36,482 nucleotides of DNA, taken from assembly GCA_905479685.1 (NCBI GenBank), contig CAJQNJ010000038.1, positions 1-36,482 on the forward strand. Direction: 5' to 3'. Shown in pieces: positions 4,709-30,801 of this stretch (position 1 is its first letter; every line of letters starts with the position of its first letter). The position numbers and the translations under genes were made by a program. A model generated the notes under the pieces. That model was not told the DNA's origin, made no database searches, and saw nothing but the letters and a program-made list of their open reading frames with translations. The DNA comes from an uncultured Acidimicrobiales bacterium (GTDB lineage: Bacteria > Actinomycetota > Acidimicrobiia > Acidimicrobiales > SHLQ01).

Positions 4709-4971
4709 GCGAGGAGCGCTCGTCGCTCTTGCTCGCTCAAGCCGCCCCACACACCGTGGGGCTCGCGAATCGCGATCGCATACGACCGACATTGCTGAAG
4801 CACTGGACAGGAGAGACAGATCTCTTTTGCGCGTGCTTCGCGCGCCAACTTCTCCCGCTTGCGTTCGGTCGTGGGTGGCGGGAAAAAGACTGCGCCGAGT
4901 GGTCCTCGACATGCTGCGCGTTCCTGCCAGAGCAACTCATTCGTCTGTACTGCGTTTTGTTGTGCCGCCAA
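4705..4971 (-). CDS. WhiB-family Fe-S transcriptional regulator
   Basis: A small (88-residue) actinobacterial regulator that binds a [4Fe-4S] cluster and partners with the primary sigma factor. Four cysteines have the family arrangement: C21, then CLSC (52-55) and C61. They are followed by the turn GVWGG and a basic C-terminus ([10 protein letters not shown]). I chose TTG 4971 as start because a strong Shine-Dalgarno (GAGGAGG) lies 7 nt upstream; the ORF can be extended to an ATG at 5019, but that extension is not WhiB-like. A putative promoter lies at 4992-5021. It shares the neighbourhood with the ArsA/Get3-like ATPase gene, as whiB4 does with Rv3679-Rv3680 in Mycobacterium tuberculosis (from memory). 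Confidence 0.93.
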
Positions 4972-4991
4972 CGTGTCGCCTCCTCGAGCCG

Positions 4992-5021
4992 AACCTAGGC
5001 GCGCTGTGACGCAGAACACAA
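4992..5021 (-). promoter_or_regulatory. Putative promoter of the WhiB-family gene
   Basis: On the minus strand, TTGTGT (5021-5016) and TAGGTT (4997-4992) are separated by 18 nt. A transcript starting about 7 nt after the -10 box would carry a short leader containing the GAGGAGG ribosome binding site of TTG 4971. Read by eye only. Confidence 0.4.
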
Positions 5022-5067
5022 GGGGGGCGAAAATCGTTCAATCGCGATTCATCGAGCAGCCAACGTC

Positions 5068-6510
5068 TCAGCTGTCTGTGGCGGCCTCGGCAACACCAGA
5101 AGTTCGACCTCTTCGTTCGCGATAATCGACGGCGCCACCCTCCTCAGGAGTCACCTCGAGTAGCAAGCCGTCCACCTCGATGACGCGAGCCCGTTCGCCC
5201 ACGGCAATCGGTGTGGCCCGGTTCGTTCGAGCTCGCCAGAGCGCCTCTCGGAAGACGACGACGCCATCAGGATCAACCGCCTCGACGACGTCGCCAACTT
5301 CGCCGATCATCCATTCGCGACCGATCGTGGGAGTCGAGAAGCGCGTGCGCACCATGGCGGGCATTCCACCGAGCATCGCCAGCAGAACGCCGACGATCCC
5401 GACCGAGAGTGGCAGCCATCCAATGCTGTACTCCCCGAGCAGGAAGATGGATCCAATCACCAAGAAGACCGACCCCACCGTGCTCCAGAACGCCTGGATA
5501 CCAGACTGCACATCGATGGCAAATCCAATGAATGCGATGACCAAGAGTGCCACGGCCCACCAACGGGCATCAAGAACGGCAAGTCCATACGATCCAGCGA
5601 GCAGACTTCCCGCGCCGATCACACCGGCGACACCCACCCCTGCTGTGAACAGTTCGAACACCAAAAGACCGAGACCGATCACGAAGAGCAAATACGCGAC
5701 CGCAGGCGAGGAGAACGTGTGGAACTGCTGGTCGATGAGCGGGAGGGTCACGAATCGGGTGTCCGTCGCTGGCACTCGAATCGGTTCGTCCTCGACAAGG
5801 GGCCCGTTGGGGATTGTCTCGCCGGGCTGGTAGACGGTGAACTCGAATTCGGGAAGCTCGAGCAGGTGGATGAGCAACGTTGGAGCGTCTTGGATCGGCA
5901 GATCCCCATCATTCGACGCGAGCTGCAAAAGCTCGTCATACCCGACTATTTCACCCGAGAACCCACCCCTGAGCGGTTCGACCAAGGGACCCGACGCAGC
6001 GGCCCCCTCGAGCACTGATTCCCCGAAGTCACCGATCTGCGACCCCGGCGACATGCCGATCCGACTCGACGCGATCGCTAGCTGACCCGCTCCACCGAGC
6101 GCTCGGCCCTTGCCAGCAGGTCCGATCCAGACGGACACAGGAATCTCGAAGTTGGCGATTCTCGTGGCCAGCGCAGTGAGGGATTCGTCATCGATCGCTG
6201 CACCCTCACTCTCCATCTGGAGCACCACGGCACGGGCACCGAGATCGAGGGACCCATCGAGACTCCGGTCGATGAAGTTCACGAGAACCGGGTCGAGGAG
6301 ACCGTTGACCTCGATCACGTCGACGAAACCGTTCGGGCCAACTCCTTGGAGACTCGGTCCGTCAGAGTCCTGTGCTATTGCAGGAGCGGAGTCCTGTGCA
6401 TTCGCCGGAACAGCCGACACAATGAAGGCACTCAACACCAGTACGAGCGCACCGAGCGCACGCAGGGTCTTGGTCGGAAGGTACCGTGGAAAGCGAGTTT
6501 CAATACCCAT
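5068..6510 (-). CDS. NfeD-family membrane protein (ClpP-class protease fold, probably inactive)
   Basis: 480 residues with a signal peptide (residues ~18-40, ending VPANA/Q). A ClpP/SppA-like extracytoplasmic domain follows, with three to four membrane segments (~270-370) and a C-terminal NfeD OB-fold domain (from ~IGREWMIGEVGDVVEAV). Long NfeD proteins act with SPFH/flotillin proteins in membrane organisation. In proteolytically active members the nucleophile is the Ser of a G-ARAASAG-like motif. Here the equivalent stretch is GRALGGAGQL, with Gly in place of Ser, so proteolysis is doubtful. No SPFH gene is adjacent. ATG 6510 is supported by GAGGAG about 7 nt upstream. This start lies inside the coding region of the divergent ATPase gene (25-bp head-to-head overlap). 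Confidence 0.88.
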   Translation of the reverse strand: MGIETRFPRYLPTKTLRALGALVLVLSAFIVSAVPANAQDSAPAIAQDSDGPSLQGVGPNGFVDVIEVNGLLDPVLVNFIDRSLDGSLDLGARAVVLQMESEGAAIDDESLTALATRIANFEIPVSVWIGPAGKGRALGGAGQLAIASSRIGMSPGSQIGDFGESVLEGAAASGPLVEPLRGGFSGEIVGYDELLQLASNDGDLPIQDAPTLLIHLLELPEFEFTVYQPGETIPNGPLVEDEPIRVPATDTRFVTLPLIDQQFHTFSSPAVAYLLFVIGLGLLVFELFTAGVGVAGVIGAGSLLAGSYGLAVLDARWWAVALLVIAFIGFAIDVQSGIQAFWSTVGSVFLVIGSIFLLGEYSIGWLPLSVGIVGVLLAMLGGMPAMVRTRFSTPTIGREWMIGEVGDVVEAVDPDGVVVFREALWRARTNRATPIAVGERARVIEVDGLLLEVTPEEGGAVDYRERRGRTSGVAEAATDS

Positions 6511-8438
6511 TTCCGCTCCTCATCATTGCGGGGAAGGGTGGCGTCGGTAAGACGGTACTGACTGCGGCGCTCGGAACCGAGTCTGCGGCACATGGTCGTT
6601 CGACACTCGTGGTCGAGCTGGGAGGTCAACGGCAACTCTTGCCGATGCTCACCGATGATCTCGACGGGCTTCCGACTCCCGATTCCAATGGGGTCGTGAT
6701 GGTCGGTGACCATCTCGGCTGGGAAACCTTGTCCCCTGATCGGCTCCTCGCTGGATGGCTGTCCGGTCGGAGTATGGGCCTCATCGCCGATCGGCTGGAG
6801 AACTCCGGTGCTCTCTCCGTCATTGCCTCCTCGGTTCCGGGAATCAAGGACGTTCTTCTCCTTGGTCACCTCCGCTCGATCGTCGAGTCGAAACGGTGGG
6901 ACCGAATCATCGTGGATGGCCCAGCGTCGGGGCGCGCCCGCGAACTTCTTCGAGCTCCCCGGCAAGTTGCCGAGGCGGCAACCGAGGGGCCCATCTACGA
7001 TCAGGCGACGCGGGCACACACCTTGCTGACCGACACCGAGTCAACGGCGGTCCTGCTTGTGACGATCGCCGAAGAGACCCCGGTCAACGAAACGATCGAG
7101 ACAGCATTCGACATCGAGGACGACCCCGGTATCCGACTCGCCGGTGTGGTCGTCAACCGAGTCTTTCCTCTGTTCGAGCCACCATCGGGTTTCGAACACC
7201 ATCCGTTCGGCCCGACGTTGCGGAACCGTCACCGATCGAACGTCGCGCAGATCGAACGACTCGAGGCCGAATTGCCGGTGCCACGAATCATCACCGCTGA
7301 AAACCCACATGGAGTTGTGACGCCTGGACATGTCCATGAAGTCCTCGGCGACGCAGCGCTGGTTCCGCCGGTCGAACCGGGACTTGTAGCCGACATGCCG
7401 ACCACCGACCACACCGCGCTGGAGGCGGCGCTCGAGCGAGATGTCGTGGTCACGGTGGGTACCGGTGGTGTGGGCAAGACAACCCTTGGTGCCGCAATCG
7501 CACTTCGCGCGGCCGAACAGGGGCGATCGGTAGCGCTGGTAACCATCGACCCTGCCAAACGACTCGCCGATGCTCTCGGCCTGGACATGCTTGACGACGA
7601 CCTTCACGATGTCGACATCGAGGGGACCGGACGACTCCAGGCGACAATGCTCGATCCTGGCCGGACATTCGAGCGAGTAGTCCGAACCTACGCGGACTCG
7701 CGCGAACACGCTGACCGGATTCTGGCCTCACCCCTCGCGACGCAACTCACGGACTCGCTCTCGGGCATGACCGAATACATGGCCGTCGAACGATTGTGGG
7801 AACTCCACAACGACCCTGAGATCGACCTCGTCGTGGTCGACACGCCACCATCGTCGGACGCACTTGCCTTTCTTGATGCACCAACCCTGCTCGCGAGACT
7901 GCTCGACAATCGCATCTACAGGCTGCTGGTGCACGGCAAACGCCGTTCGGTCATCAACCGCGCTCTGGGTGGACTCGTCGGCCAACTGGTTTCGACGGTG
8001 GGCGGAACCGTCGTACGCGAAGCCGTGGAATTCTTCAGGAGCTTCGAAGGAGTTGAAGAGGGCTTCCGCGAACGAGGCGACGCCATGCACGACATGTTGC
8101 GGAGCTCGCATACGAGCTTCATTGTGGTGGCGTCACCGACGGGCTCATCGCTCGGAAACGCTCGCGAATTCATCGGTCAGCTGCGCGAAGCCGGCGTGCG
8201 TCCGAGCCTCACACTTGCGAACCGCTGCACCCCAGAAGTCGCTGGGGCTGGACGAGCCAAGGCGGCTGTTCAGATCATCGAACACCTTCGGGCGAAACGA
8301 TCGGCTGAGCGATCGAATGTCGCTGCATACGCACGAGAGACATCGATGCCGATGGTACTCGTCGATGATCTTCCGGAACCAGTGACCACACTCGACGGAA
8401 TTCGCACGTTGTCACACGCTCTGGGGCCAGCGTCGTAG
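6486..8438 (+). CDS. Fused double ArsA/Get3-like ATPase (Rv3679-Rv3680 type)
   Basis: 650 residues with two ATPase halves. The N-terminal half has P-loop AGKGGVGKT (~residues 15-23), then SGALSVIASSVPGIKDVLLLG, IIVDGPASGRARELLRAP and VTIAEETPVNE, a pattern I associate with Rv3679-like proteins. The second half has GTGGVGKTTLG (~residue 325), TIDPAKRLADALGL (switch I), VVDTPPSSDALAFLDAP (switch II) and ANRCTPE. The Rv3679-Rv3680 pair of M. tuberculosis forms a Get3-like complex from two genes; here both halves are one polypeptide. GTG 6486 is the only start that keeps the first P-loop; GGAAGG lies about 4 nt upstream. No arsenite genes are nearby, so arsenite export is unlikely. Membrane-protein targeting or stress roles are inference from family knowledge. 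Confidence 0.9.
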   Translation: MESEFQYPFPLLIIAGKGGVGKTVLTAALGTESAAHGRSTLVVELGGQRQLLPMLTDDLDGLPTPDSNGVVMVGDHLGWETLSPDRLLAGWLSGRSMGLIADRLENSGALSVIASSVPGIKDVLLLGHLRSIVESKRWDRIIVDGPASGRARELLRAPRQVAEAATEGPIYDQATRAHTLLTDTESTAVLLVTIAEETPVNETIETAFDIEDDPGIRLAGVVVNRVFPLFEPPSGFEHHPFGPTLRNRHRSNVAQIERLEAELPVPRIITAENPHGVVTPGHVHEVLGDAALVPPVEPGLVADMPTTDHTALEAALERDVVVTVGTGGVGKTTLGAAIALRAAEQGRSVALVTIDPAKRLADALGLDMLDDDLHDVDIEGTGRLQATMLDPGRTFERVVRTYADSREHADRILASPLATQLTDSLSGMTEYMAVERLWELHNDPEIDLVVVDTPPSSDALAFLDAPTLLARLLDNRIYRLLVHGKRRSVINRALGGLVGQLVSTVGGTVVREAVEFFRSFEGVEEGFRERGDAMHDMLRSSHTSFIVVASPTGSSLGNAREFIGQLREAGVRPSLTLANRCTPEVAGAGRAKAAVQIIEHLRAKRSAERSNVAAYARETSMPMVLVDDLPEPVTTLDGIRTLSHALGPAS

Positions 8439-9302: not shown

Positions 9303-9415
9303 GACACCGGAAAAGGCAAAGCCGATCAGCCACATCGCACTCAGCGGCCACGACCATCGCCGTGAAATCGGAGCATCACTTGCCGTAGACAACAAGCGCG
9401 GGAAGGATGAGGGCC

Positions 9416-11776
9416 ATGACTGCAGAGGTTCAACGATCAATTCTGCCCATTCCTGAAGTGAAGCACGTGGGTCTCACCACGTATGACGCGAAGGATCCAG
9501 ATACCAAGTTCCCGCCGATCCGGGATGTCCGGCCGCCCGAGGGCGCGCCCAATGTGATCGTCATCCTGATCGACGATTGCGGGTTTGGTGCGACCAGCGC
9601 GTTCGGTGGGCCAGTGAGTACCCCGACAGCGGAACGGCTCGCGAGTGGGGGCTTGAAACTCAACCGGTTCCACACCACGGCGCTGTGCTCGCCGACACGT
9701 CAGGCGTTGCTGACGGGCCGTAACCATCATTCGGTGAACATGGGCGGCATCACCGAAATGGCGACCTCGGCTCCCGGGTACACGTCGGTGCTTCCCAAAG
9801 ACAAAGCACCCTTGCCGATGACGCTCAAGCTCAACGGGTACTCAACGGCCCAGTTCGGGAAATGTCATGAAGTGCCCGTCTGGCAGACCAGTCCGATCGG
9901 ACCGTTCGACTCATGGCCCACAGGTGGCGGCGGATTCGAGTACTTCTATGGCTTCATCGGTGGTGAGGCGGACCAGTACTTCCCATCGCTCTACGAGGGC
10001 ACGATTCCGATCGAGCCCAACAAGACGCCTGACGAGGGCTACCACTTCACCGAAGACATGACCAACAAGGCAATCGGTTGGGTGCGCCAGCAGAAGGCGC
10101 TCATGGCCGACAAGCCCTTCTTCATGTATTACGCGCCTGGGGCAACGCATGCTCCCCACCACGTGCCGGACGAATGGATCGAGAAGTACAAGGGCAGGTT
10201 CGACAGCGGGTGGGATCAACTACGAGAAGAGACCTTCGAGCGCCAGAAGGCCCTCGGCGTCATCCCACAAGACGCTGTTCTCACCGACCGGCCCGACGAA
10301 ATTCCTGCCTACGACGACATGCCCGAAGAGCTCAAACCGATCCTCGCTCGTGAGATGGAGACCTACGCGGGCTTCCTCGAGCACACCGACCATCACATTG
10401 GTCGGCTGGTCGACGCGCTGCAAGATCTCGAGATTCTCGATGACACGTTGATCTATTACATCATTGGCGACAACGGGGCCTCTGCAGAAGGAACCCTGAA
10501 CGGTTGCTTCAATGAAATCGCGGTTCTCAACGGGATGGGCACGATCGAGACACCAGAGTTCCTGATGAGCAAGATCGATGACTTCGGTGGCCCGGAAGCC
10601 TCCAACCACTACGCCGTCGGCTGGGCCCACGCGATGGACACGCCGTATCAATGGACGAAGCAGGTTGCGTCGCACTGGGGTGGCACTCGCAACGGAACGA
10701 TCGTGCACTGGCCCAACGGGATCGACGCAAAAGGTGAGATTCGTTCACAGTTCTCCCACGTCATCGATGTCGCGCCGACCATTCTCGAAGCCGCGGGAAT
10801 TCCGGCACCGACGATCGTCAACAGCGTGCAGCAGGCACCTCTTGAAGGCTCCAGCATGATGTACGCGTTCGACGATTCTGATGCAGCCGAACGTCACACG
10901 ACGCAATACTTCGAGATGTTCTGCAACCGCGGTATCTACCACGAGGGTTGGACTGCTGTGACCCGGCACACCGTCCCGTGGGTCGGCCCGCTTGAACAGT
11001 CGTTCGATGAGGACGTCTGGGAGCTGTACGACACCAACACCGACTGGACCCAGTCGAATGACCTGGCAGAGAAGCATCCCGAGAAACTCGCTGAACTGCA
11101 GCGACTGTTTCTGATCGAGGCGACCAAGTACAACGTCGTGCCGCTCGATGACCGTTCGTTCGAGCGTTTCAACTCAGATCTGGCCGGTCGGCCGCAGTTG
11201 ATCAAGGGAAAGACGCAGATGCTGTTCGGCGGCATGCATCGACTTCAGGAACACGTCATCTTGAATGTTCACAACAAGTCGTATTCGCTGACCGCTGAAA
11301 TCGAGGTGCCCGAATCGGGCGCGTCCGGCGTCATTGTCTCCCTCGGTGCCGGCATCGGGGGCTGGAGCCTCTACGCACACGAAGGCAAGCTCAAGCATTG
11401 CTACAACTTCTTCGGCATCGACAAGTACTTCGCTCAGAGCGATGGGGAGATACCGGCCGGCACGCATCAGGTTCGGCTCGAGTTCAGTTACGACGGTGGC
11501 GGCCTGGCCAAGGGTGGCACTGTTTCGCTCTTCATCGACGGCCAGAAAGACGGTGAGGGCCGCGTCGACATGACGGTGCCGATGCTGTTCGGCACCGATA
11601 CCTGCGACGTGGGGAGTGATGCCGCCTCGCCGGTCTCGCCCGACTATGGGCCCAAAGACAACGCGTTCAACGGGACCGTGAACTGGGTACAGATCGACAT
11701 CGATGAGAACGCCGAGGATCTCGACCACCTGATCACGCCAGAAGAGCGCTACAAGGTTGCGATTGCGCGGCAGTAG
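9416..11776 (+). CDS. Sulfatase (arylsulfatase, AtsD-like, ~786 aa)
   Basis: A type I sulfatase hydrolysing sulfate esters. Metal-binding residues are seen in VIVILIDDCGFG. The active-site signature CSPTRQALLTGRN holds the Cys that a formylglycine-generating enzyme converts to formylglycine. Other motifs are GKCHEVP and IGDNGASAEGT. The last ~200 residues form a beta-rich C-terminal domain (VIVSLGAGIGGWSLY...). The size matches the ~790-residue mycobacterial AtsD type. No signal peptide is visible, so it is probably cytoplasmic. ATG 9416 is preferred to ATG 9407 because GGAAGGA lies 8 nt before it and would be directly against the earlier ATG. No formylglycine-generating enzyme or sulfate transporter is adjacent, and the substrate cannot be read from sequence. 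Confidence 0.93.
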   Translation: MTAEVQRSILPIPEVKHVGLTTYDAKDPDTKFPPIRDVRPPEGAPNVIVILIDDCGFGATSAFGGPVSTPTAERLASGGLKLNRFHTTALCSPTRQALLTGRNHHSVNMGGITEMATSAPGYTSVLPKDKAPLPMTLKLNGYSTAQFGKCHEVPVWQTSPIGPFDSWPTGGGGFEYFYGFIGGEADQYFPSLYEGTIPIEPNKTPDEGYHFTEDMTNKAIGWVRQQKALMADKPFFMYYAPGATHAPHHVPDEWIEKYKGRFDSGWDQLREETFERQKALGVIPQDAVLTDRPDEIPAYDDMPEELKPILAREMETYAGFLEHTDHHIGRLVDALQDLEILDDTLIYYIIGDNGASAEGTLNGCFNEIAVLNGMGTIETPEFLMSKIDDFGGPEASNHYAVGWAHAMDTPYQWTKQVASHWGGTRNGTIVHWPNGIDAKGEIRSQFSHVIDVAPTILEAAGIPAPTIVNSVQQAPLEGSSMMYAFDDSDAAERHTTQYFEMFCNRGIYHEGWTAVTRHTVPWVGPLEQSFDEDVWELYDTNTDWTQSNDLAEKHPEKLAELQRLFLIEATKYNVVPLDDRSFERFNSDLAGRPQLIKGKTQMLFGGMHRLQEHVILNVHNKSYSLTAEIEVPESGASGVIVSLGAGIGGWSLYAHEGKLKHCYNFFGIDKYFAQSDGEIPAGTHQVRLEFSYDGGGLAKGGTVSLFIDGQKDGEGRVDMTVPMLFGTDTCDVGSDAASPVSPDYGPKDNAFNGTVNWVQIDIDENAEDLDHLITPEERYKVAIARQ

Positions 11777-11925
11777 TTGCCGCCTGCAACGACCAGCTCG
11801 AGCTGAACGTGACCAGCAGCAACGCGTCGAACCGATCGAGGGGTCGGATCAGTCGGTACCGGACCAACAACGCAAAGGTGGTCAGCACCAATGAGGTACG
11901 GCTGGGCTCGATGCCATCGTGGCCG

Positions 11926-11931
11926 TATACT
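11926..11931 (+). promoter_or_regulatory. -10 box TATACT of tRNA-Pro
   Basis: TATACT lies 13 nt before the 5' end of the tRNA, the best match to TATAAT in this intergenic stretch (11777-11944, otherwise featureless). No clear -35 box is visible. Confidence 0.5.
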
Positions 11932-11944
11932 CGCCCATGCAATT

Positions 11945-12018
11945 CGGGTAGTAGCGCAGCTTGGTAGCGCGCCTCGTTCGGGACGAGGAGGTCGGAGGTT
12001 CAAATCCTCTCTACCCGA
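11945..12018 (+). tRNA. tRNA-Pro (anticodon CGG)
   Basis: A full cloverleaf can be drawn. The acceptor stem CGGGTAG pairs with CTACCCG, the D-stem is GCGC/GCGC with loop AGCTTGGTA, and the anticodon stem is CCTCG/CGAGG with loop TTCGGGA (anticodon CGG, reading CCG). The T-arm is GGAGG-TTCAAAT-CCTCT. The discriminator base is A, and CCA is not encoded (ACA follows the stem). Length is 74 nt. Confidence 0.96.
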
Positions 12019-12060
12019 CAGAAGTTTCTCCCTGACCGCGAGGCCAGCAAGTACGGGCGA

Positions 12061-12888
12061 TCAGCCTTGACCGATACCCGAGATGATCTCGAGGATCGTC
12101 GTTCCACAGACCTCTTGGGTCATGAACGATGGATCGGTGGCAGCTGAGTCGAGGTCCAAGCCGGAGCCGAGCTCCTGTTCGAGGCAGGCCACGAGCTCCT
12201 CGTCGAGGCCGAACTGGTCGAAGATCGCCTGCGCTGCGTCAGGATTGATCTCGAGGCCCTCGAGGTCAGCTGGATCGATGCCCAAGTCGGCTGGATCGAT
12301 TCCCTCAGGAAGGAGACCGTCGAGGACATCTGGCGTGTCGTCCTCGAGCACATTGTCGATTCCGCACACCTCTTTCAAGTAAGTGTCGATCCGATCGCCG
12401 GAGGCATCGAGTGCCACCGTATCGAGTGCGTCCATCTCCGCTCCCAGGGCCTCGTCGAAGAAGTTGTAGTCGTACTTCTCGAGAATGGTTCCCATCTGAC
12501 GGATGCCATCGAGCGAACTCTCGAAGTCATCGCGAATCTCAGCTGGCGCGATCGAAATCACTTCGCCATAGAGCTCTTCTGCCTCCTCGAAGAATTCTGG
12601 ACCAATCGTCAGGCTCACGTTCTCGAACGGTTCGTTCTCGTCGAACTCACGAGCCTTCTCACAGAACTCGTTGCTGTCGTCACCCGAAAAATCCTCATCG
12701 ACCTCTGTGGTGCTCGGGGCGCCAGTCGTCGAGGACTGCTCGCTGAGCTCTGACGAAGTGGTGGTCGTTTCGGCCGTTTCGGCCGTGGTGGCCGTGTCGG
12801 CCGTGGTGGTCGTGTCGGTACCGTCGCTACCGCATGCCGTTGCGATCACCATCGTCACGGTCACGAGTGCCCAGAGTCGCTTGATCAT
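12061..12888 (-). CDS. Putative acidic lipoprotein with Thr/Ser-rich linker, unknown function
   Basis: I do not recognise a family. The 275-residue protein begins MIKRLWALVTVTMVIATACGS, a signal peptide with lipobox-like ATAC, so it is probably a secreted lipoprotein. Residues ~21-65 form a low-complexity Thr/Ser/Ala linker, encoded by an imperfect DNA repeat. The rest is strongly acidic, with short direct repeats (GIDPADL twice) and four Cys outside the lipobox (FCEKAR, EVCGID, ACLEQE, EVCGTT) that could form two disulfides. The start ATG 12888 has AAGGA about 8 nt upstream. Convergent with tRNA-Pro; nothing in the context indicates a role. Confidence 0.8.
   Translation of the reverse strand: MIKRLWALVTVTMVIATACGSDGTDTTTTADTATTAETAETTTTSSELSEQSSTTGAPSTTEVDEDFSGDDSNEFCEKAREFDENEPFENVSLTIGPEFFEEAEELYGEVISIAPAEIRDDFESSLDGIRQMGTILEKYDYNFFDEALGAEMDALDTVALDASGDRIDTYLKEVCGIDNVLEDDTPDVLDGLLPEGIDPADLGIDPADLEGLEINPDAAQAIFDQFGLDEELVACLEQELGSGLDLDSAATDPSFMTQEVCGTTILEIISGIGQG
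12768..12817. repeat. Imperfect short tandem repeat encoding Thr/Ala linker
   Basis: Units of about 9 bp related to TTTCGGCCG / GTGTCGGCCG / GTGGTGGCCG repeat several times inside the lipoprotein gene and encode its Thr-Ala-rich spacer. Length variation between strains would be likely. Confidence 0.6.
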
Positions 12889-12958: not shown

Positions 12959-14119
12959 TCATGTGTCGAGACCAACAATCTCGAGTTCCGGGCGCACTCT
13001 CAGGACCCGCAGAACCCGCAGACCTCCAAACACGACTCCCGCAACCACGATCGACCACGCCGCAACGATCAGCTGACCGAGGATCTGCGCAAAGAATTGA
13101 TTCGAGTCGAGTCCGTTGGCGATCAATGACGCCCACACCCCACCTGCTCCGAACACACCGACCACGCCGACTGGGTCATCGATCTGCCAGCGCTCAACCT
13201 GCGCGACACCGACGAACGCGATGACCCCTCCGATGGCGCCGATTGCGAGCGCTGGTGCTGGATCGACATCGAGCAACGAACCCGACACCGACACCACGCC
13301 AACCAAGAACCCACGGGACACGACTGAAGTATCAACGAAACCCACACTGCGCAGACCAAGCAATGCTGCCGAGCCTGCTCCAGCCGACCCGGCAATGACC
13401 ACGGCGAGGGATGCGGTCGCAACGTCGTCACTCCACGCTGCCGTGTTGAGTGCCGACAGACCGATCGAGCCTGCCAAGAAGACAACCGTGCCAGCGCTCA
13501 CCATCGCTGCCGACTTGCCTGGTATGGCTCGGAAATCGCCGCTCGGACCAATCCGACCCAACCGAGGCCCGATCACCATCGCTCCAACCAGTGCAAACCA
13601 GCCCGACATGGTGAACAACGTCGCCGCTGCGGAATCAACGAAGCCAGAATCGCCGATCGTGATGGAACCAAGGATCCCATCTGTTTCAAGGGACCGCCTG
13701 GTGAGGGGGACAGCGAATCCACCGGCCACGAGGCCGACGAGCACGTGGGCGACAAACGTTGCCCGTTCGGCAAGTGCTGCCATGACCAGCGCACCGAAGA
13801 GGCTGGAGATCGCAATCTGTTGGAAGATCAACGATCCCGTGGTCGCTGAATCGGCGGTCACCCGCTGTGCGAGCTCGACGTCGAGGAGAAAGAATCCATC
13901 GCTTCCATACCATTGGTTTCCTGAGGAAACCCCGAGCGCATATCCGCACACGACAACGCCGAGGACCGCGCCGATCACACCTCCGAGGTGACGCGCTGCC
14001 CCAGTACTGACCGTACGTCGGCGAGTCATTCCCTCGACGATCATGACAATGCCACCGTGCATCACTACGAGCAATGATCCGGAGACCACGGCCCACACGG
14101 TGTTCACATCATCGCCCAT
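12959..14119 (-). CDS. Degenerate Amt/Rh-family membrane protein lacking both pore histidines
   Basis: 386 residues with about 11 hydrophobic segments and an N-terminal NTVWAVVSGSLLVVMHGG that matches the Amt opening (NTAWVLVSAALVLLM...). Other Amt landmarks remain: FQQIAISSLFGALVMAALAER (compare FQ...ITPALI.GA.AER), MSGWFALVGAMVIGPR and DDPVGVVGVFGAGG (compare DDPVDAFGVHG). The two twin pore histidines of E. coli AmtB (H168, H318) align by eye with F169 and F323, so normal ammonium conduction is unlikely; a sensor or altered-substrate channel is possible. It is divergent from the membrane GGDEF/EAL gene with ~126 nt between starts. No glnK follows. Family membership is moderately certain; function is not. 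Confidence 0.75.
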   Translation of the reverse strand: MGDDVNTVWAVVSGSLLVVMHGGIVMIVEGMTRRRTVSTGAARHLGGVIGAVLGVVVCGYALGVSSGNQWYGSDGFFLLDVELAQRVTADSATTGSLIFQQIAISSLFGALVMAALAERATFVAHVLVGLVAGGFAVPLTRRSLETDGILGSITIGDSGFVDSAAATLFTMSGWFALVGAMVIGPRLGRIGPSGDFRAIPGKSAAMVSAGTVVFLAGSIGLSALNTAAWSDDVATASLAVVIAGSAGAGSAALLGLRSVGFVDTSVVSRGFLVGVVSVSGSLLDVDPAPALAIGAIGGVIAFVGVAQVERWQIDDPVGVVGVFGAGGVWASLIANGLDSNQFFAQILGQLIVAAWSIVVAGVVFGGLRVLRVLRVRPELEIVGLDT

Positions 14120-14245
14120 ACGTTGGCGATTTCACCACGTTGAGTAGCCAAGCGCCCACGCGGACTGAAATCGTGGTCAACAACGACCAGAAGCTGCCGA
14201 TTGAAATACGTGGCTTTTCGACTTCGGATCGGGGATGGATCATCG

Positions 14246-17206
14246 ATGAACCAATCGGCACGCAAGGCGCGCCGACGTCCGCTTCTGCGCAGACTCTCGA
14301 TCGGCCCGAGGCTCCTCCTTTTCATCGCTGTCCCAACCGTGGCCCTGATCAGCCTCATCGCGCTGTTGGTCTGGTCCGATGCCCAGTCCCTGCTCGAACT
14401 GCGCAGGTTTCGAGCCGTCACCGAGAACGTCACCGAGAACGTCGAAGCACGTGCGACCGTCCAGGCCGAACGTCACCAGCTCGTGGATGGTGACCCCACG
14501 ACACCAGCGACCTCTGACGAGGACCCGGGGCTCGGCTTCAATGCCGATGTGCGCTCTGCTCTTCGAGACCTCGACGCCTCTTCCGATATCGGACAGGATC
14601 TCTCTACCGCCCGCGAGCTGTCGGGGACGCGCCAGTCCCGCCAGGCTGCTCAGATCTACACCAAACTCGTCGATGCATTCAGCGCGTCGATCGAAGCCGA
14701 ACTCGCGAGCACACCATTGGGACGAGCTGAACAGCGTAAAAGTGCACTTCTTGCGCTTCTCGAAGCCGAGGAGTCCTACCTGCTCGAGGATCTGGAAGCC
14801 CGACTCGGCGACGGCGACCCGATTGTCTTGACCCGCCTCAACACGTCCGCCTCCGGCGCGCTCGGACGATTCACGAACAATGCAACTCCCGAGGGCACAC
14901 AGTCGCTCGAGGAGCTTTCGGTCTCGAGCGCATGGCGCACGCTCACCTTGCTTCGAGCCCAGTTCGTGGACGCTCCATCGAATGGCCTTGATGAGGAAAC
15001 GTGGAAACTCGCCGCAGACGTGCGACGGCTGACGCTTGCCGACCTGGTCAGCGACGAGACCACGACGTTTCGCACCTCGATCGCTCGAGCTGCCGACAAG
15101 GAACTCGGTCGACTTCTGCTACTCACTTCTATCGTCGGTGGCGTCTTGATTCTCGCAATCATGGGGGCGACAGCGCTGCGACGAAGCATCGTGGGACCAC
15201 TCTCCACACTTCGCTCGAATGCTCGTCAACTGTCGAAAGGTGAACTCACACCGATCACTGATCCGGCGGCGGACGAGATCGCCGAGGTATCGGGAGCGTT
15301 CTCGTCACTCTCCTCCACGATGGAACACATCTGGACGGACATTGATCGGGTGAGGTCATCGATTGCCGATGGTGTCTACGACAAACGAATCGACACCAGC
15401 GAACTCGAGGGCGACTGGCTTCGCCTTGCCGACACGGTGAACGCCACGTTGTCGACGAGCGAGGCACACCGCGACAGCGTCCGTGAAGAACTCGACCGTC
15501 GTGATGTCATGACGGAGATCTCCAATGCAGCGGTGCTCGCAGAGTCTGCGTCTGCACTCACCTCAGCGGTTCTCCATCACCTTCCGCGGGCACTCGCTGG
15601 ATCTCACGCCCATCTGCACGAGCACCCGAGCGGACCTCCGCACATCGATCTCGGCATCACCCTCGAACCAAGCATCTCTGCACTTGAAATACCGACGCTT
15701 GCGGACCAAGCACAACTCGTCCAGCTCCGTGATGGTCGGGGTGTGGCGAGTCTTGTCACCTTTCCCGTCGGTCCGCCCGCCGTTCTCGTGCTCGTCTTCG
15801 GCGACATCGGACCAGCCCAACCTGAACCGCTCGTCTCACTCATCGAGACCGCAGGACGCATTCTTGCCCAAGCGCACCGCCGGCAGCAGGCCGAGACGAG
15901 CGCCACCCACAGCCGCGAGCACGATCTGCTCACCGGTCTTCCGAACTCGAGCCACCTGCAGCGGTGGTTCTCCGAGCAGACCGACCCTTCGACTCTCTGG
16001 ATTGCGCTCGGCCTGCACCCGCAGCGCCTCGACGAACTCGACGGGTCGTTCGGTCGCGATGCGCGGGATCTCGTTCTACGAGAAGTCGCCAAGCAGATCG
16101 AACTGATCGTCAAGACGGAGTTGGCGGCCGCTGGAGCCAAGGGCTCGATCGCTCGAGTTGGCCAGCCAGATTTCGTCGCGTTGCTTCCAGAGGAACACTC
16201 GGCACAGTTGATCCACTCACTCGTGGAGGCATTCGCCAAGCCGCTCCAGATCAACGGCTCACACATCAGCGTCAACCTCACGGTCGGCGTCGACCAGATC
16301 GAGACTGCAGATCGCGACCTGACCCAAACGCTTGCAAATCTCTCCGCCACGATCCGCCAAGCCGATGGGCGCGATACCGAAATCGTACATTTCGAGTCGC
16401 GCTACCGCGACGAAGTCCGCCGGCGCACACAACTCATCGGCTGGCTGGAACAAGCCATCGGAAACCGCGATCTCTCGATTCACTTCCAACCTGTCGTCAA
16501 CGCCGTGACCACAGAGATCGAGGGATACGAGTGCTTGATCCGAGGAGAACTCGATGGAACGTCGGTCTCCCCGGGCGAATTCATCCCCCTGGCCGAGGAG
16601 ACCAACCTGATCATGGCGATCGGCGAGTTCGCATTGCGAGAGGCCTGCGCGGCACTTCCATTCCTGCCAGGGCAGTCTCCCTACGTTGCCGTGAACCTGT
16701 CTCCCGTGGAACTCGGCGATCCCCATCTGCTCGACCGCGTCGATTCGGTCCTCACCCAGTCCAACGTGGACCGCAGCCGAGTCGTGTTCGAGATCACCGA
16801 GGGAATCGCGGCATCACAAGCAGATATCGAAGTGCTGCATCGGTTGCGCCGGATCGGGGTCAAGATTGCGATCGACGACTTCGGCTCCGGCCAATCGAAT
16901 CTTTCGTACCTCCACTCGCTGCCAGCCCAGATTCTCAAGCTCGATCGCAGCTTGATCACGCCGATCGTCGACGACGCCGGCGCAGCAGGGATCGTGCGCA
17001 AGGCGATCGAGATGGCACACGACCTCGGCATGACCGTGGTCGGCGAAGGCGTCGAGACGAATGACGAGCTCAACGCGCTCCGGCGTGTCCGATGTGATCT
17101 GGTCCAAGGTTGGCTCACTGGCCGACCAGCGCCGCTCGACAGCTTCATCGAGATCACCGTCAATCGTCCCGTCAACCAGATCAACACGCCGAACGAGTTG
17201 CGATGA
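14246..17206 (+). CDS. Membrane HAMP-GGDEF-EAL protein, likely c-di-GMP phosphodiesterase
   Basis: 986 residues from ATG 14246 (GGGGATGGA upstream; the frame extends to TTG 14201). TM1 is ~22-42 and TM2 ~288-310. Between them lies a ~245-residue mostly helical extracytoplasmic domain, somewhat like a NIT (nitrate/nitrite-sensing) bundle (tentative). HAMP follows (~310-365), then a linker that may be GAF-like, a GGDEF domain and an EAL domain. The GGDEF signature is replaced by VGQPDF, so cyclase activity is unlikely. The EAL domain keeps its metal and catalytic residues: E of YECLIRGE, N of NLSPVEL, E of EITEG, IDDFGSG, K of LKLDRS, E of VGEGVET and Q of QGWLTGRP. It should hydrolyse c-di-GMP. 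The stop overlaps the next gene's start (ATGA), so the downstream lipoprotein is probably its partner. Confidence 0.92.
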   Translation: MNQSARKARRRPLLRRLSIGPRLLLFIAVPTVALISLIALLVWSDAQSLLELRRFRAVTENVTENVEARATVQAERHQLVDGDPTTPATSDEDPGLGFNADVRSALRDLDASSDIGQDLSTARELSGTRQSRQAAQIYTKLVDAFSASIEAELASTPLGRAEQRKSALLALLEAEESYLLEDLEARLGDGDPIVLTRLNTSASGALGRFTNNATPEGTQSLEELSVSSAWRTLTLLRAQFVDAPSNGLDEETWKLAADVRRLTLADLVSDETTTFRTSIARAADKELGRLLLLTSIVGGVLILAIMGATALRRSIVGPLSTLRSNARQLSKGELTPITDPAADEIAEVSGAFSSLSSTMEHIWTDIDRVRSSIADGVYDKRIDTSELEGDWLRLADTVNATLSTSEAHRDSVREELDRRDVMTEISNAAVLAESASALTSAVLHHLPRALAGSHAHLHEHPSGPPHIDLGITLEPSISALEIPTLADQAQLVQLRDGRGVASLVTFPVGPPAVLVLVFGDIGPAQPEPLVSLIETAGRILAQAHRRQQAETSATHSREHDLLTGLPNSSHLQRWFSEQTDPSTLWIALGLHPQRLDELDGSFGRDARDLVLREVAKQIELIVKTELAAAGAKGSIARVGQPDFVALLPEEHSAQLIHSLVEAFAKPLQINGSHISVNLTVGVDQIETADRDLTQTLANLSATIRQADGRDTEIVHFESRYRDEVRRRTQLIGWLEQAIGNRDLSIHFQPVVNAVTTEIEGYECLIRGELDGTSVSPGEFIPLAEETNLIMAIGEFALREACAALPFLPGQSPYVAVNLSPVELGDPHLLDRVDSVLTQSNVDRSRVVFEITEGIAASQADIEVLHRLRRIGVKIAIDDFGSGQSNLSYLHSLPAQILKLDRSLITPIVDDAGAAGIVRKAIEMAHDLGMTVVGEGVETNDELNALRRVRCDLVQGWLTGRPAPLDSFIEITVNRPVNQINTPNELR

Positions 17207-18549
17207 GCGGGCAGTTTGGTCGTGTTGTCCGATTCTTCGCGTCGGCCGTTGTCGTGATGATGATCACTGCGGGCTGCGGCAGCCTCACTCCGGACTCACT
17301 GGCGTACGCGAACGAGGACGCCACGGTTGCCGAGGAGTCGGTCATCCGGATCGCAACACCACGCATTCGTGGTCTCGAGCAGGCGATCGACGATTGGGAA
17401 CGTGAACATCCCACCGCTCGAGTTGAGATCGTTGTCCGGAGTATCGATGACCACCACAGATCGGTGCTTGACGATGCCGGAGCCGGCGGCGTGTTCGACG
17501 TCATCGGGTTCGAGGCCGCGTATGGACCCGACGTTCGAGAACGTTCAGAGCTCTTCCTGGATTTGGAAACCATCGACGGGGACGTCGCAGAATCCGACTA
17601 CCTCTCCTCACGCTGGCGCGAAGGTATCGGCGATGACGGGCGACTCATTGGCCTCCCGATCGACGTCGACAGCGTGGCGCTCGCCGTTCGAAGCGACATG
17701 GTTGACCCAGCACTGATCGACCGACTCGAGGCTGCGTCCACATGGTGCGAGCTGATCGCTACCGGCGACGCCTTTTCGGACGCCACCGGTTTGGCGTTCC
17801 TGCCCGACGGTGACGAGGTCTTCACCACAGTGCTCTCACAGAACCGCTTGTCCTTCATCGACGATTCAGGTGCAATGCTCCCCGACAAGGCTCCAGAGCT
17901 CGAGCGAGCATGGGACTTGACCATGCTGGCCATCGGCTCGCCGCCGTTGCACGGCACCCCCTGTGCAACCGAGACCGGTGCAGAGGGGACCGAGATCGCC
18001 CGTATCACACGCGACCTACCCGCTGGCGGGTCCCAGTGGCGCGACGAGCTGCGCGCGGACGGATTCGCAGCGGTACTTGCCCGGTATTCAGAACTGCGAG
18101 CGATCGCCGCAGCAGCACCCGACACAACAGGACGGTGGACGGTTGTCGAACTCCCAGGCACATCCGGTCCAAGCGCTGGTGGAATCCATCTCGGGATCTC
18201 GAAGGACAGCACCCACGCCGACCTCGCATTCGACCTCGTTTCGTACCTCGCCAACCCGATCATCCAAAAGCATGCGTTCGCCGATGGCTCCGGGCCGTTC
18301 CCGGCAGCCTCGGTCATCTATGGCGATCCAACGATCACCGAATACTCCGATCCGTTCTTCGGCGACGCTCCGATCGGGGAGATATTTGCCTCCACTGCAA
18401 CACGTCGACCGACCGAGTTGGCCGGACCACTACGTCGCATCGTGATCGAACTCTTCGTCAGCGCGCTCAACCGGGTCGAGGAAGGGACACAGACTCCTGA
18501 CGAAGCCTGGGACGATGCGCTGTGGAGCATCGACCAGTTCCTCGGCTGA
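17203..18549 (+). CDS. Extracellular solute-binding lipoprotein coupled to the EAL gene
   Basis: 448 residues from ATG 17203, which overlaps the previous stop. The signal peptide ends at lipobox TAGC (residues 22-25). The mature part has the outline of family 1 ABC solute-binding proteins: VIRIATPRIRGLEQAIDDWE at the start, LIGLPIDVDSVALAVRSDMV in the hinge, and WTVVELPG...GGIHLGISKDS with a C-terminal helical lobe (AFDLVSYLANP). No ABC permease or ATPase gene is adjacent. The tight coupling to a membrane GGDEF/EAL protein suggests that it senses a ligand outside the membrane and passes the signal to the EAL protein. A comparable pair is NspS-MbaA of Vibrio cholerae. The ligand is unknown. 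Confidence 0.85.
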   Translation: MSGQFGRVVRFFASAVVVMMITAGCGSLTPDSLAYANEDATVAEESVIRIATPRIRGLEQAIDDWEREHPTARVEIVVRSIDDHHRSVLDDAGAGGVFDVIGFEAAYGPDVRERSELFLDLETIDGDVAESDYLSSRWREGIGDDGRLIGLPIDVDSVALAVRSDMVDPALIDRLEAASTWCELIATGDAFSDATGLAFLPDGDEVFTTVLSQNRLSFIDDSGAMLPDKAPELERAWDLTMLAIGSPPLHGTPCATETGAEGTEIARITRDLPAGGSQWRDELRADGFAAVLARYSELRAIAAAAPDTTGRWTVVELPGTSGPSAGGIHLGISKDSTHADLAFDLVSYLANPIIQKHAFADGSGPFPAASVIYGDPTITEYSDPFFGDAPIGEIFASTATRRPTELAGPLRRIVIELFVSALNRVEEGTQTPDEAWDDALWSIDQFLG

Positions 18550-18575
18550 GTGCACGGCTCCCAGCACCCAGGAAC

Positions 18576-18581
18576 TACATT
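18576..18581 (+). promoter_or_regulatory. -10-like box TACATT, 7 nt before the Fe-S oxidoreductase start
   Basis: TACATT, 7 nt, then ATG 18589. There is no Shine-Dalgarno at proper distance, so a leaderless transcript is likely. Confidence 0.45.
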
Positions 18582-18588
18582 CAGTGCC

Positions 18589-20877
18589 ATGAAAACCTCG
18601 CGCGTCACTCCGCAGCGTCTCGTCCTCGGAATCGGCATTGCCGTCGGCCTCGTCACCGCCCTCTCGGGCCTGGCTGCCGAGTTGTTCGAATTCGAGACCG
18701 AGAGCGATGTGCACCGCACCGTCTTCGGCAACGTTCCAGATGTTCTGCGGCTTGCCTTCTACACGGTCATGCCGGTGATCATCGTCTACGGCGCGTGGGT
18801 CTTTTCATTGCGAATCAAGAACTGGCAACGTGGTGGCCCCGACAACCGCGCGACCACGACCAAGAATGCATCGAGCAGATTGAAGGACTTCCGCTCGGGT
18901 GTGTACATGCGGACACTTCTTCGCGAGCCCGCCGCTGGCGTCATGCACTCGATGATGTATTTCAGCTTCGTCGTCCTCTTGGGCGTCACGACGGTGCTCG
19001 AGATCGACCACCAGATGCCCACAGATCTGAAGTTTCTCTACGGAGGCACCTACAAGGGATACGCCATGGTCGGCGATCTCGCAGGACTGATCTTCACGAC
19101 CTCGATCGTCTGGGCGATCCTTCGCCGATACGGACCTCGCGCCATGCGCCCGTACCGAATCCGCATCAAGAGCAAACCTGAACATGCCGTCATCCTCGGA
19201 ACCTTGCTGGCCATGGCGGTGACCGGCTTCGGCGCTGAGATGTTCCGGATCGCGCTGAACGACATGCCCGAGTACGAGCAGTGGTCATTCATTGGTTACC
19301 CACTGGCCACCCTCGTCGAGAACAACGACTCGCTGGCCGGCTGGCACCAGGCCTGGTGGATTGGTCACGTCCTGACGTTTGTCGGATTCCTCATCCTCCT
19401 GCCGATCACCATGTTGCGCCACATCTTCACGTCACCGTTGAACATGTATCTCTCCGACAAGGATCGGCCGAAGGGTGCCATGAAGGCGATGCCGAATCTC
19501 ATGGAGACCGAACTGGAGTCGTTCGGTGTCTCGACCATCGAGGATTTCACCTGGAAACAACTGCTCGACACCGATTCATGCACGATGTGTGGCCGCTGCA
19601 CGAGCGTCTGTCCCGCACATTTCACGGGCAAACCTCTCGACCCACGGGAGATCGTGCTCAAGACCGGTGAAGTGATGGCCCGAACCGGTGACCCACAGGT
19701 CTCACCGCCGATCGGTGTCGACGCCGAGATCACCGTGCCGTCGAATTGGATGTTCGATCGGGTGACCTCAGAGGAACTCTGGGCCTGCACCTCGTGTCGA
19801 GCCTGCGATGACATCTGCCCCGTCAATATCGAGATCCTCGACAAGATCCTCGACATGCGCCGATATCTCTCACTGATGGAATCAGACTTTCCGACCGAGC
19901 TGGGCAACGCCTATCGCGGCATGGAAAACCAGATGAACCCATGGGCGATGAGCCAGGGGGAGCGTGCCGACTGGGTCGTCGACGACTCCGTGACCGTCCT
20001 CGCAGGGGACGAGCCACTCGAAGCCGAATACCTGTACTGGGTCGGCTGCGCGGGGTCGTTCGACGACAAGAACAAGAAGGTCAGCCAGGCTCTATCCAAG
20101 CTCATGAACCGAGCTGGCGTGTCCTATGCGATTCTCGGTCCGGCGGAGAACTGCACGGGTGACTCTGCGCGGCGAACCGGCAACGAGTACATCTTCCAAA
20201 TGTTGGCGATGCAGAACATCGAGACGCTCAACGGCATGGGTGTCAAGAAGATCATCACCCAATGCCCACACTGTTTCAACACGTTGAGCAACGAGTACCC
20301 ACAACTCGGTGGTCACTATGAGGTGATCCATCACAGCGAATTCCTCGAACAACTCATCGACGAAGGCGACCTCGACATGTCGAACGCATCCCTCGAGGAA
20401 CGGATCGTGTATCACGACGCGTGTTACCTCGGTCGACACAACGACATCTACATGGCGCCACGGAAGGTCATCGGCTCGCTTGGTGGGGTCGAGGTGCTCG
20501 AAGCTGAGCGCAACGGCACGAAGAGCATGTGCTGCGGAGCCGGTGGTGGCCGCTTCTGGATGGAGGAGACGACCGGCAAGGACGTCAACGTAGAACGCTC
20601 TGAGCAGCTCGTGGCGACCGGAGCCAGTCGAATCGCGACGGCCTGCCCCTTCTGTTACGTGATGATCGATGACGGGGTCAAGGGTCAGGGCATCGACGAG
20701 GAAGAGGTCAAGGTCGCAGATATTGCGATCCACATGCTCGAAGCGCTCGAACGCGGCGACGAGATCGCCGAACGGCGGTCTCTGGCGCCAACGATGGTCG
20801 AGTCTGCTGTCGCAATCTCCTCGAACTCGGGTGTCGACGACACCGATCCGGGCACCGACATCGCCGAGCCCAGCTGA
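18589..20877 (+). CDS. EtfD-like membrane Fe-S oxidoreductase (HdrD/GlpC-type)
   Basis: 762 residues. The N-terminal third is a membrane domain with about six segments like the nitrate reductase gamma/DsrM cytochrome b family; candidate heme histidines include those in VMHSMMYFSF and WWIGHVLTF. Next are two [4Fe-4S] motifs (CTMCGRCTSVCP and CTSCRACDDICP), then two CCG domains (CAGS...CPHCFNT and DACYLG...MCCGAGGGRFWMEE...CPFC). This is the layout of mycobacterial EtfD (Rv0338c), which passes electrons from electron-transfer flavoprotein to menaquinone in fatty-acid oxidation. No etfAB genes are in the window, so the electron donor is inference. The start ATG 18589 follows a -10-like TACATT; an upstream GTG (18550) is less likely. 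It is convergent with the MFS gene, with one base between the stops. Confidence 0.88.
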   Translation: MKTSRVTPQRLVLGIGIAVGLVTALSGLAAELFEFETESDVHRTVFGNVPDVLRLAFYTVMPVIIVYGAWVFSLRIKNWQRGGPDNRATTTKNASSRLKDFRSGVYMRTLLREPAAGVMHSMMYFSFVVLLGVTTVLEIDHQMPTDLKFLYGGTYKGYAMVGDLAGLIFTTSIVWAILRRYGPRAMRPYRIRIKSKPEHAVILGTLLAMAVTGFGAEMFRIALNDMPEYEQWSFIGYPLATLVENNDSLAGWHQAWWIGHVLTFVGFLILLPITMLRHIFTSPLNMYLSDKDRPKGAMKAMPNLMETELESFGVSTIEDFTWKQLLDTDSCTMCGRCTSVCPAHFTGKPLDPREIVLKTGEVMARTGDPQVSPPIGVDAEITVPSNWMFDRVTSEELWACTSCRACDDICPVNIEILDKILDMRRYLSLMESDFPTELGNAYRGMENQMNPWAMSQGERADWVVDDSVTVLAGDEPLEAEYLYWVGCAGSFDDKNKKVSQALSKLMNRAGVSYAILGPAENCTGDSARRTGNEYIFQMLAMQNIETLNGMGVKKIITQCPHCFNTLSNEYPQLGGHYEVIHHSEFLEQLIDEGDLDMSNASLEERIVYHDACYLGRHNDIYMAPRKVIGSLGGVEVLEAERNGTKSMCCGAGGGRFWMEETTGKDVNVERSEQLVATGASRIATACPFCYVMIDDGVKGQGIDEEEVKVADIAIHMLEALERGDEIAERRSLAPTMVESAVAISSNSGVDDTDPGTDIAEPS

Positions 20878-30699: not shown

Positions 30700-30799
30700 A
30701 CCAAACCACCGGGGAGCTCGGGCACATGCCGGGCTGAGAGGGCGATGCAGCATCGCCGACCCGTACGAACCTGAACTGGGTAATTCCAGCGGAGGAAAG
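30700..30799 (+). ncRNA. TPP (THI-box) riboswitch
   Basis: The conserved thi-box blocks occur in order: GGGGAGC (30711), GGCTGAGAGGG (30731), GACCCGTACGAACCTGAACT (30758) and GGGTAATTCCAGCGGAGGA (30778). Between the second and third blocks is a variable hairpin (CGATG-CAG-CATCG). The aptamer's 3' end contains GGAGGA, which is also the ribosome binding site of thiB (ATG 30802, 5-6 nt away). Ligand binding is therefore expected to block translation initiation, a common mode in high-GC actinobacteria. No terminator hairpin with a U-run is present, which fits translational control. Confidence 0.96.
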
Positions 30800-30801
30800 T
30801 G

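Follow-up and report, generated by a model that had tools for sequence, protein, structure and literature searches.

In the NspS-MbaA system of Vibrio cholerae a solute-binding protein (SBP) is paired with a membrane receptor of the GGDEF-EAL type, and a homologue of this system has reportedly been found in Sinorhizobium meliloti (PMC9993111). The ScrABC locus of Vibrio parahaemolyticus is said to consist of three genes, among them one for a periplasmic binding protein and one for a GGDEF-EAL protein. The known roles of Amt proteins are those of transporter, of transceptor (Mep2) and of ammonium-binding sensor. We analysed a 36,482 nt stretch of DNA from an uncultured Acidimicrobiales bacterium (the window; contig C38 of genome G000, which has 3.2 Mb in 246 contigs and is 85.3% complete) in which genes of these kinds lie side by side. 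They encode an Amt-family pseudo-transporter (12959-14119, minus strand, 386 aa), a membrane receptor with sensor, HAMP, GAF-like, degenerate GGDEF and EAL domains (14246-17206, plus strand, 986 aa) and a solute-binding lipoprotein with the lipobox ITAGC (17203-18549, plus strand, 448 aa). A preliminary description of the locus had proposed a three-part system sensing nitrogen or a polyamine-like ligand. We consider it probable, at moderate confidence, that the receptor and the lipoprotein form a two-part SBP-controlled receptor of the NspS-MbaA kind with phosphodiesterase output only; this judgement holds with or without participation of the Amt-like protein. The locus shares with NspS-MbaA the pairing of an SBP with a membrane GGDEF-EAL receptor and differs from it in that the SBP is a lipoprotein nearest to oligosaccharide binders, that the two genes overlap and that an Amt-like gene lies divergently beside them. 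With ScrABC it shares three genes that include a binding protein and a GGDEF-EAL protein, although ScrA is reportedly an enzyme and not a membrane protein, unlike the Amt-like protein here. Stimulation of enzymes of cyclic di-GMP (c-di-GMP) turnover by SBPs is treated as an accepted mechanism in a passage of PMC9602780.

The genes of receptor and lipoprotein overlap. In the window the TGA stop of the receptor gene shares bases with the lipoprotein ATG at 17203, and the resulting ATGA stop-start overlap (17203-17206, plus strand) can be read directly in the sequence. An overlap was present in all 11 loci of the window's genus (its own and those of ten relatives), as ATGA in 4, GTGA in 5 and TGATG in 2, with the overlapping codon taken as the start. 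The open reading frame (ORF) of the lipoprotein as listed opens upstream at TTG 17110, and that of the receptor at TTG 14201, which is merely the first start codon past a stop; ATG 14246 was taken as the receptor start. The three genes and the ATGA overlap are real and lie where the preliminary description had placed them, and judged from their sequences the ORFs are not products of chance, because they are kept in 10 related genomes and the ratio of nonsynonymous to synonymous substitution rates (dN/dS) was well below 1 in the pairs tested. It had also been claimed that the lipoprotein lacks a permease of the ATP-binding cassette (ABC) type, and no permease gene was found as its immediate neighbour in any of the 11 genus loci, where the receptor gene lies on one side and an iron-sulfur (Fe-S) protein gene on the other. 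Together with the overlap this makes an SBP-receptor pair of the NspS-MbaA type, the analogue named in the preliminary description, the best reading of these two genes. The lipoprotein could instead serve an unlinked ABC importer, the overlap with the receptor gene only co-regulating uptake and signalling; the protein belongs to ABC-type solute-binding families and the genome has 37 BPD_transp_1 matches, but the gene overlap and the lack of an immediate permease in 11/11 loci make this improbable. Both of two distant homologues that were checked lie beside BPD_transp_1 permeases.

Receptor-SBP pairs were also found at two loci outside this arrangement. At L095 (genome G002, another genus) a HAMP-GGDEF-EAL gene with an intact GGDEF motif overlaps a related SBP gene by ATGA, and at L094 (genome G017) a HAMP-GGDEF-EAL gene is followed by a related SBP gene after a 9-nt gap. 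The EAL-SBP pair looks like the core of the system, with the Amt-like gene a one-genus addition, if it is part of it at all. The L094 pair (4048-7965 of G017:C53) is a second, divergent EAL-SBP pair and by eye lies between sigma-factor-like and EF-Ts-like genes. G017 also has another SBP gene, a partial one accompanied by an Fe-S gene (C154, L103), perhaps from strain mixture or contamination.

The receptor matched Pfam EAL at 2.7e-64 and Pfam GGDEF at 2.5e-9. Its EAL phosphodiesterase domain (16442-17128, this and the following domains on the plus strand) has in all 11 homologues the residues E, R, N, E, E, D, D, K, E and Q, which we take to be the catalytic set, and its GGDEF domain (15920-16336) carries the motif GQPDF, degenerate in 11/11. 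Because the GGDEF motif is degenerate and the EAL catalytic residues are complete throughout, the output is probably c-di-GMP breakdown only; the GGDEF domain probably makes no c-di-GMP and would be at most regulatory. MbaA, in contrast, is described as bifunctional in a passage of PMC8967002. Two further domains precede the GGDEF domain. The HAMP domain (residues 311-355; 15176-15310) was matched by Pfam at E≤0.1 in 11/11 homologues, with a best value of 2.6e-8, and reached 1.1e-4 and 22.8 bits in the window protein, under the cut-off of 25. The GAF-like domain (residues 435-543; 15548-15874) is suggested by the AF2 model and by Foldseek matches to GAF domains and had no Pfam GAF match. The N-terminal region had been described as an extracytoplasmic helical domain. 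This fits the hydrophobic segments at residues ~17-50 and 286-312, which bracket a putative sensor (residues 46-288; 14381-15109), and the AF2 model (11 sequences, mean pLDDT 73.5), in which the sensor is helical; a third hydrophobic segment, residues 499-521, sits in the GAF-like strands of the model.

The sensor has a weak likeness to NIT domains. Pfam NIT scored above its cut-off of 24.9 in two of ten members scanned singly (L089 at 26.6 and L090 at 29.5), and the first Foldseek match of the receptor's N-terminal half was NasR (4akk; E 3.6e-3, probability 1.00). NasR differs in that the similarity is weak and in its output, which is ANTAR and not EAL. A sensor that binds a small ligand of its own directly, for example nitrate, with the lipoprotein only modulating the response, would suit this NIT resemblance; it is unlikely, as sequence searches yielded no alignment to NasR on which nitrate-binding residues could be mapped and most members fall under the NIT cut-off. 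What stands of the proposed nitrogen sensing is only this weak resemblance.

The lipoprotein matched SBP_bac_8 (2.6e-14, 54.1 bits) above SBP_bac_1 (37.5 bits). A lipobox-like Cys was present in 11/11 lipoproteins, each with exactly two further Cys, the invariant C182 and C254, which perhaps form a disulfide. A profile search gave 46 solved relatives, headed by the cellobiose-binding 8bfy (166 bits) and the unnamed 5ixp (159 bits), and the best 50 of 929 Foldseek matches at E≤0.001 were carbohydrate-binding or unnamed or putative solute-binding proteins. No polyamine binder was named among the 46 solved sequence relatives or the best 50 of the 929 Foldseek matches. These relatives suggest that the ligand is most likely an oligosaccharide. 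According to passages of PMC9602780, SBP_bac_1 members are mostly predicted sugar binders and predicted polyamine binders are mostly SBP_bac_8, and the two families mix in trees; the Pfam assignment by itself is therefore not decisive for the ligand. The polyamine-like ligand of the preliminary description is disfavoured, since the closest solved relatives are sugar binders or proteins without a name, although SBP_bac_8, a family with many polyamine binders, gave the better Pfam match. The lipoprotein resembles the CebE-type binders (8bfy, 5ixp) in sequence and fold and differs from them in having no immediate permease, two further invariant Cys and a gene that overlaps a receptor gene.

The Amt-like protein matched PF00909 (Ammonium_transp) over residues 8-386 (2.6e-34, 119 bits against a cut-off of 23.2) and scored 130.2 bits against NCBIfam TIGR00836 'amt', below its cut-off of 343.3. 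No other family was found in the Pfam scan of its 386 residues, and it has no fused output domain. Functional sites were compared between the 10 complete copies of the genus and 52 other acidimicrobial Amts, which were the best-matching distinct sequences of at least 330 aa among the fetched loci and not a random sample. The ten complete copies formed one clade with support 1.0 on a long stem. The twin His (AmtB H168 and H318) and the Phe gate (both positions) were present in 0/10 of these copies and in 52/52 of the others, which bears out the earlier label of a degenerate transporter homologue. H326 was replaced by Phe in all ten, and of the outer site Ser was kept in 1/10 and Trp, possibly misaligned, in 2/10. 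The high-affinity NH4+ site of Ks-Amt5 was likewise gone: Q24, E31, N47, D50, T51 and T112 were absent from all ten copies and T109 was found in 4/10. Other residues were invariant in the ten (E118-R119, D162, G184-P185-R186, D314-D315, Q345, R374 and E380), and several of these are on the cytoplasmic side of known Amts. Three pairs gave dN/dS values of 0.09, 0.13 and 0.21 (dS ~1.8-1.9 in the latter two), which indicates that the gene is under purifying selection and not decaying.

Loss of both His in AmtB abolishes methylamine and ammonia transport in vivo (PMC3647058), and channel-like activity of AmtB variants without the twin His has been seen by others (PMC9040831). Given its residues, the Amt-like protein seems to descend from an ammonium transporter, with the pore chemistry lost and family-wide structural residues kept, and it is unlikely to act as a normal transporter or as a Ks-Amt5-like sensor. 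Direct ammonium sensing by this protein is disfavoured by the loss of the ammonium residues. A related possibility is that the Amt-like protein, as part of a split ammonium sensor similar to Ks-Amt5 or the Amt-GGDEF protein, signals to the EAL protein. Its best solved relatives were 8qj3 (175 bits), which we take to be Sd-Amt1, and Ks-Amt5 (6eu6, 156 bits), with AmtB entries at 97 bits or less. The Amt fold serves in signalling in both, and in 8qj3 it is joined to a GGDEF domain, an example of an Amt module coupled to a c-di-GMP enzyme. However, Ks-Amt5 and 8qj3 keep the twin His, the Phe gate and the outer site, whereas the protein studied here has lost these along with Q24, E31, N47 and D50 and has no fused output. 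Other acidimicrobial Amts scored higher than these solved relatives (up to 257 bits), and the tree node joining the Amt-like clade with sensor Amts had a negligible support of 0.066, all of which makes a split ammonium sensor very improbable.

A side observation concerns the other acidimicrobial Amts, in which Q24, E31, D50 and T109 of the Ks-Amt5 site were each found in 49/52 and N47 in 52/52; these Amts came from loci L006-L007, L017-L038, L097-L102 and L244-L272. The Ks-Amt5 paper calls this NH4+ site absent from assimilatory Amts (PMC5764959). The site may be the signature of a subfamily of Amts and not of sensors.

The occurrence of the trio was assessed at the level of the family, class and phylum. 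The family search covered 19 genomes, 11 of the window's genus (its own and ten others) and 8 of other genera. All three genes lay on one contig in 11/11 genus genomes, with the Amt gene complete in 10 and cut by the contig end in one (G013), so the trio did not separate within the genus. In the family's 8 genomes from other genera neither the trio nor a full-length EAL relative was found. The class sample held 296 genomes, with G000 the single representative of its genus, and the class and phylum searches scored only 4-6 candidates per genome, so that absences there are provisional; in the class sample no other genome was found with close relatives of all three proteins. The SBP profile matched 30 of these genomes, nearly all weakly, and 12 regions were inspected with profiles; the best relative (G060, 222 bits) adjoins a BPD_transp_1 permease. 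The N-terminal profile of the EAL protein gave matches in 118, most of them limited to a few residues near HAMP, and only G058 matched well beyond it; the GGDEF motif of its receptor (L273) is intact, and the next gene encodes a nucleotide cyclase and not an SBP. The Amt profile matched 199 genomes at E≤1e-20, the best outside the genus reaching 257 bits against 470 for the window protein. In the phylum sample (396 genomes, G000 again alone for its genus; matches at E≤1e-72) only the window Amt and three of the 250-257-bit Amts were recovered. The A2 genome scan matched at least 590 stretches, 577 of which encode a relative, and among the best 80 of the 577 one (L104, apparently contig C23 of genome G018) carried EAL N-terminal, Amt-like and SBP matches together. 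A viral scan with the EAL N-terminal part gave no relative. Within the genomes searched the trio thus belongs to one genus only; conservation across Acidimicrobiia, on which the preliminary description would have had it judged, is not supported by the other family genomes or by the class sample.

Synteny was compared between the window genes and the loci of the ten relatives. The Fe-S/CCG membrane oxidoreductase gene (18550-20877, plus strand) closely follows the lipoprotein gene in the window, and an Fe-S gene follows the SBP gene in 11/11 loci, with a gap of 34-169 nt in the ten relatives. A match to it was found in 19/19 family genomes, also in the 8 from other genera where the trio was not found, and it probably lies outside the system. 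Beyond the Amt gene comes a STAS gene in 9 of the 10 loci reaching that far, after a gap of ~0.3 to 3.9 kb. The exception is L090, which has a different long ORF beside the Amt gene and no match to STAS or to the neighbouring gene g6486, and in which the trio is still together. This ORF (L090 12993-17801, genome G009; 1602 aa) appears by eye to be NAD-glutamate-dehydrogenase-like. No clean empty site was found in the sister genera; the neighbours of the Fe-S gene differ there (a gpmI-type gene and a regulator gene, two loci typed). Mean protein distances were 1.21 for the Amt-like protein, 1.45 for the EAL sensor and 1.20 for the SBP, compared with 0.08-0.76 for the eight neighbours measured, and the rest of the EAL protein (0.53-0.64) fell inside the neighbours' range.

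In a three-part receptor a transport-dead Amt would act as a non-ammonium regulatory subunit of c-di-GMP breakdown, next to an oligosaccharide-type lipoprotein and a NIT-like HAMP-GAF-EAL phosphodiesterase. We offer this reading tentatively and hold it to be rather unlikely. The trio is together at 11/11 loci, and this much of the three-part proposal stands; the rest of it relies on the divergent position of the Amt-like gene in a largely syntenic region, and there are two pairs without a nearby Amt. Several observations weigh against a three-part receptor as a whole. Within the genus the adjacency of the three genes is mostly general synteny, so their co-location is weak evidence, and their spacing is not special, as the SBP-FeS gap is equally tight. 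At L094 and L095 no Amt match was found within 13.9 and 7.7 kb, respectively. In a distance-tree (mirror-tree) test expressed as partial r given the Fe-S gene, the EAL sensor tracked the SBP at 0.80 and g6486 at 0.89, while the Amt-like protein tracked the EAL sensor at 0.41, the SBP at 0.32 and g6486 at 0.71. The test did not single the trio out from the neighbour g6486 and gives no evidence for the three-part claim. Other observations weigh against the proposed reading of the components, the two-part receptor included: eight of the ten members scanned singly were below the NIT cut-off, with no match in the window protein, and the superposition on NasR was poor (TM 0.34/0.48, rmsd 22.5), with no Foldseek match of the receptor at E≤0.001. 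The lipoprotein model was only fair (mean pLDDT 69, TM ~0.3-0.46 to its matches), and SBP_bac_8 as the better Pfam match does not exclude a polyamine. Contact between the proteins, the ligand and a change in c-di-GMP are all predictions. Because the neighbourhood is mostly syntenic and the covariation test unspecific, the three-part system is unproven.

The same data bear on whether the Amt-like gene is simply an unrelated divergent neighbour, kept by regional synteny beside a receptor of two parts. This possibility, contained in the two-part reading, deserves some credence without being the expected outcome. It would account for the largely syntenic region, the L094 and L095 pairs without a nearby Amt and the Amt distances that track the EAL protein or the SBP no more than g6486. 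It sits less well with the spacing of the Amt-like and EAL genes, which is held at 101-145 nt in 10 loci compared with ~0.3-3.9 kb between STAS and Amt, with L090, where the far neighbour of the Amt gene differs and the trio is intact, and with the Amt-like clade being found solely with the EAL-SBP pair within the genomes searched.

For the two-part receptor we propose that a small ligand, with an oligosaccharide as the most likely candidate, is bound by the lipoprotein, which is anchored to the external side of the membrane and would dock on the receptor's helical sensor. From there the signal would pass through HAMP and the GAF-like domain and control how fast c-di-GMP is broken down by the EAL domain. 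The Amt-like protein, kept by selection, is perhaps a membrane accessory or a regulator of the same pathway, through a putative contact with the receptor. If this is correct, the pair would extend SBP-controlled c-di-GMP receptors to sugar-type actinobacterial lipoproteins and to phosphodiesterase-only output, and a conserved Amt clade that has shed its ammonium machinery and stays next to a c-di-GMP enzyme would offer a natural example of how a transporter becomes a signalling component. No description of this arrangement was found in a literature search confined to an open-access collection, and a word search of the accessible text of a review of c-di-GMP stimuli (PMC8846402) returned none of the words ammonium, Amt and NspS.

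The divergent intergenic region between the Amt-like and EAL genes (14120-14245, no strand assigned) is 126 nt long in the window. In an alignment of the region from 10 genomes two boxes stood out within 14120-14160, TTCACCAC (14131-14138) and GCCCAC, each exact in 5/10 genomes and close in some others. Read on the Amt strand, TTCACCAC contains GGTGA, probably the ribosome-binding site of the Amt gene. Promoter and terminator scans of the sequence gave no more matches than shuffled sequence. Between the STAS and Amt-like genes (9407-12888) the window carries genes for a sulfatase and a tRNA-Pro and a small ORF that resembles a lipoprotein, and neither of the two proteins was matched in the loci of the ten relatives, which suggests an insertion. 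Another ABC importer, equipped with an SBP_bac_6 protein of its own and a double permease, is encoded at 30799-33599, ~12 kb from the lipoprotein gene. At the other end of the window (1680-4708), selA-like and selB-like genes are signs of a selenocysteine system in this actinobacterium.

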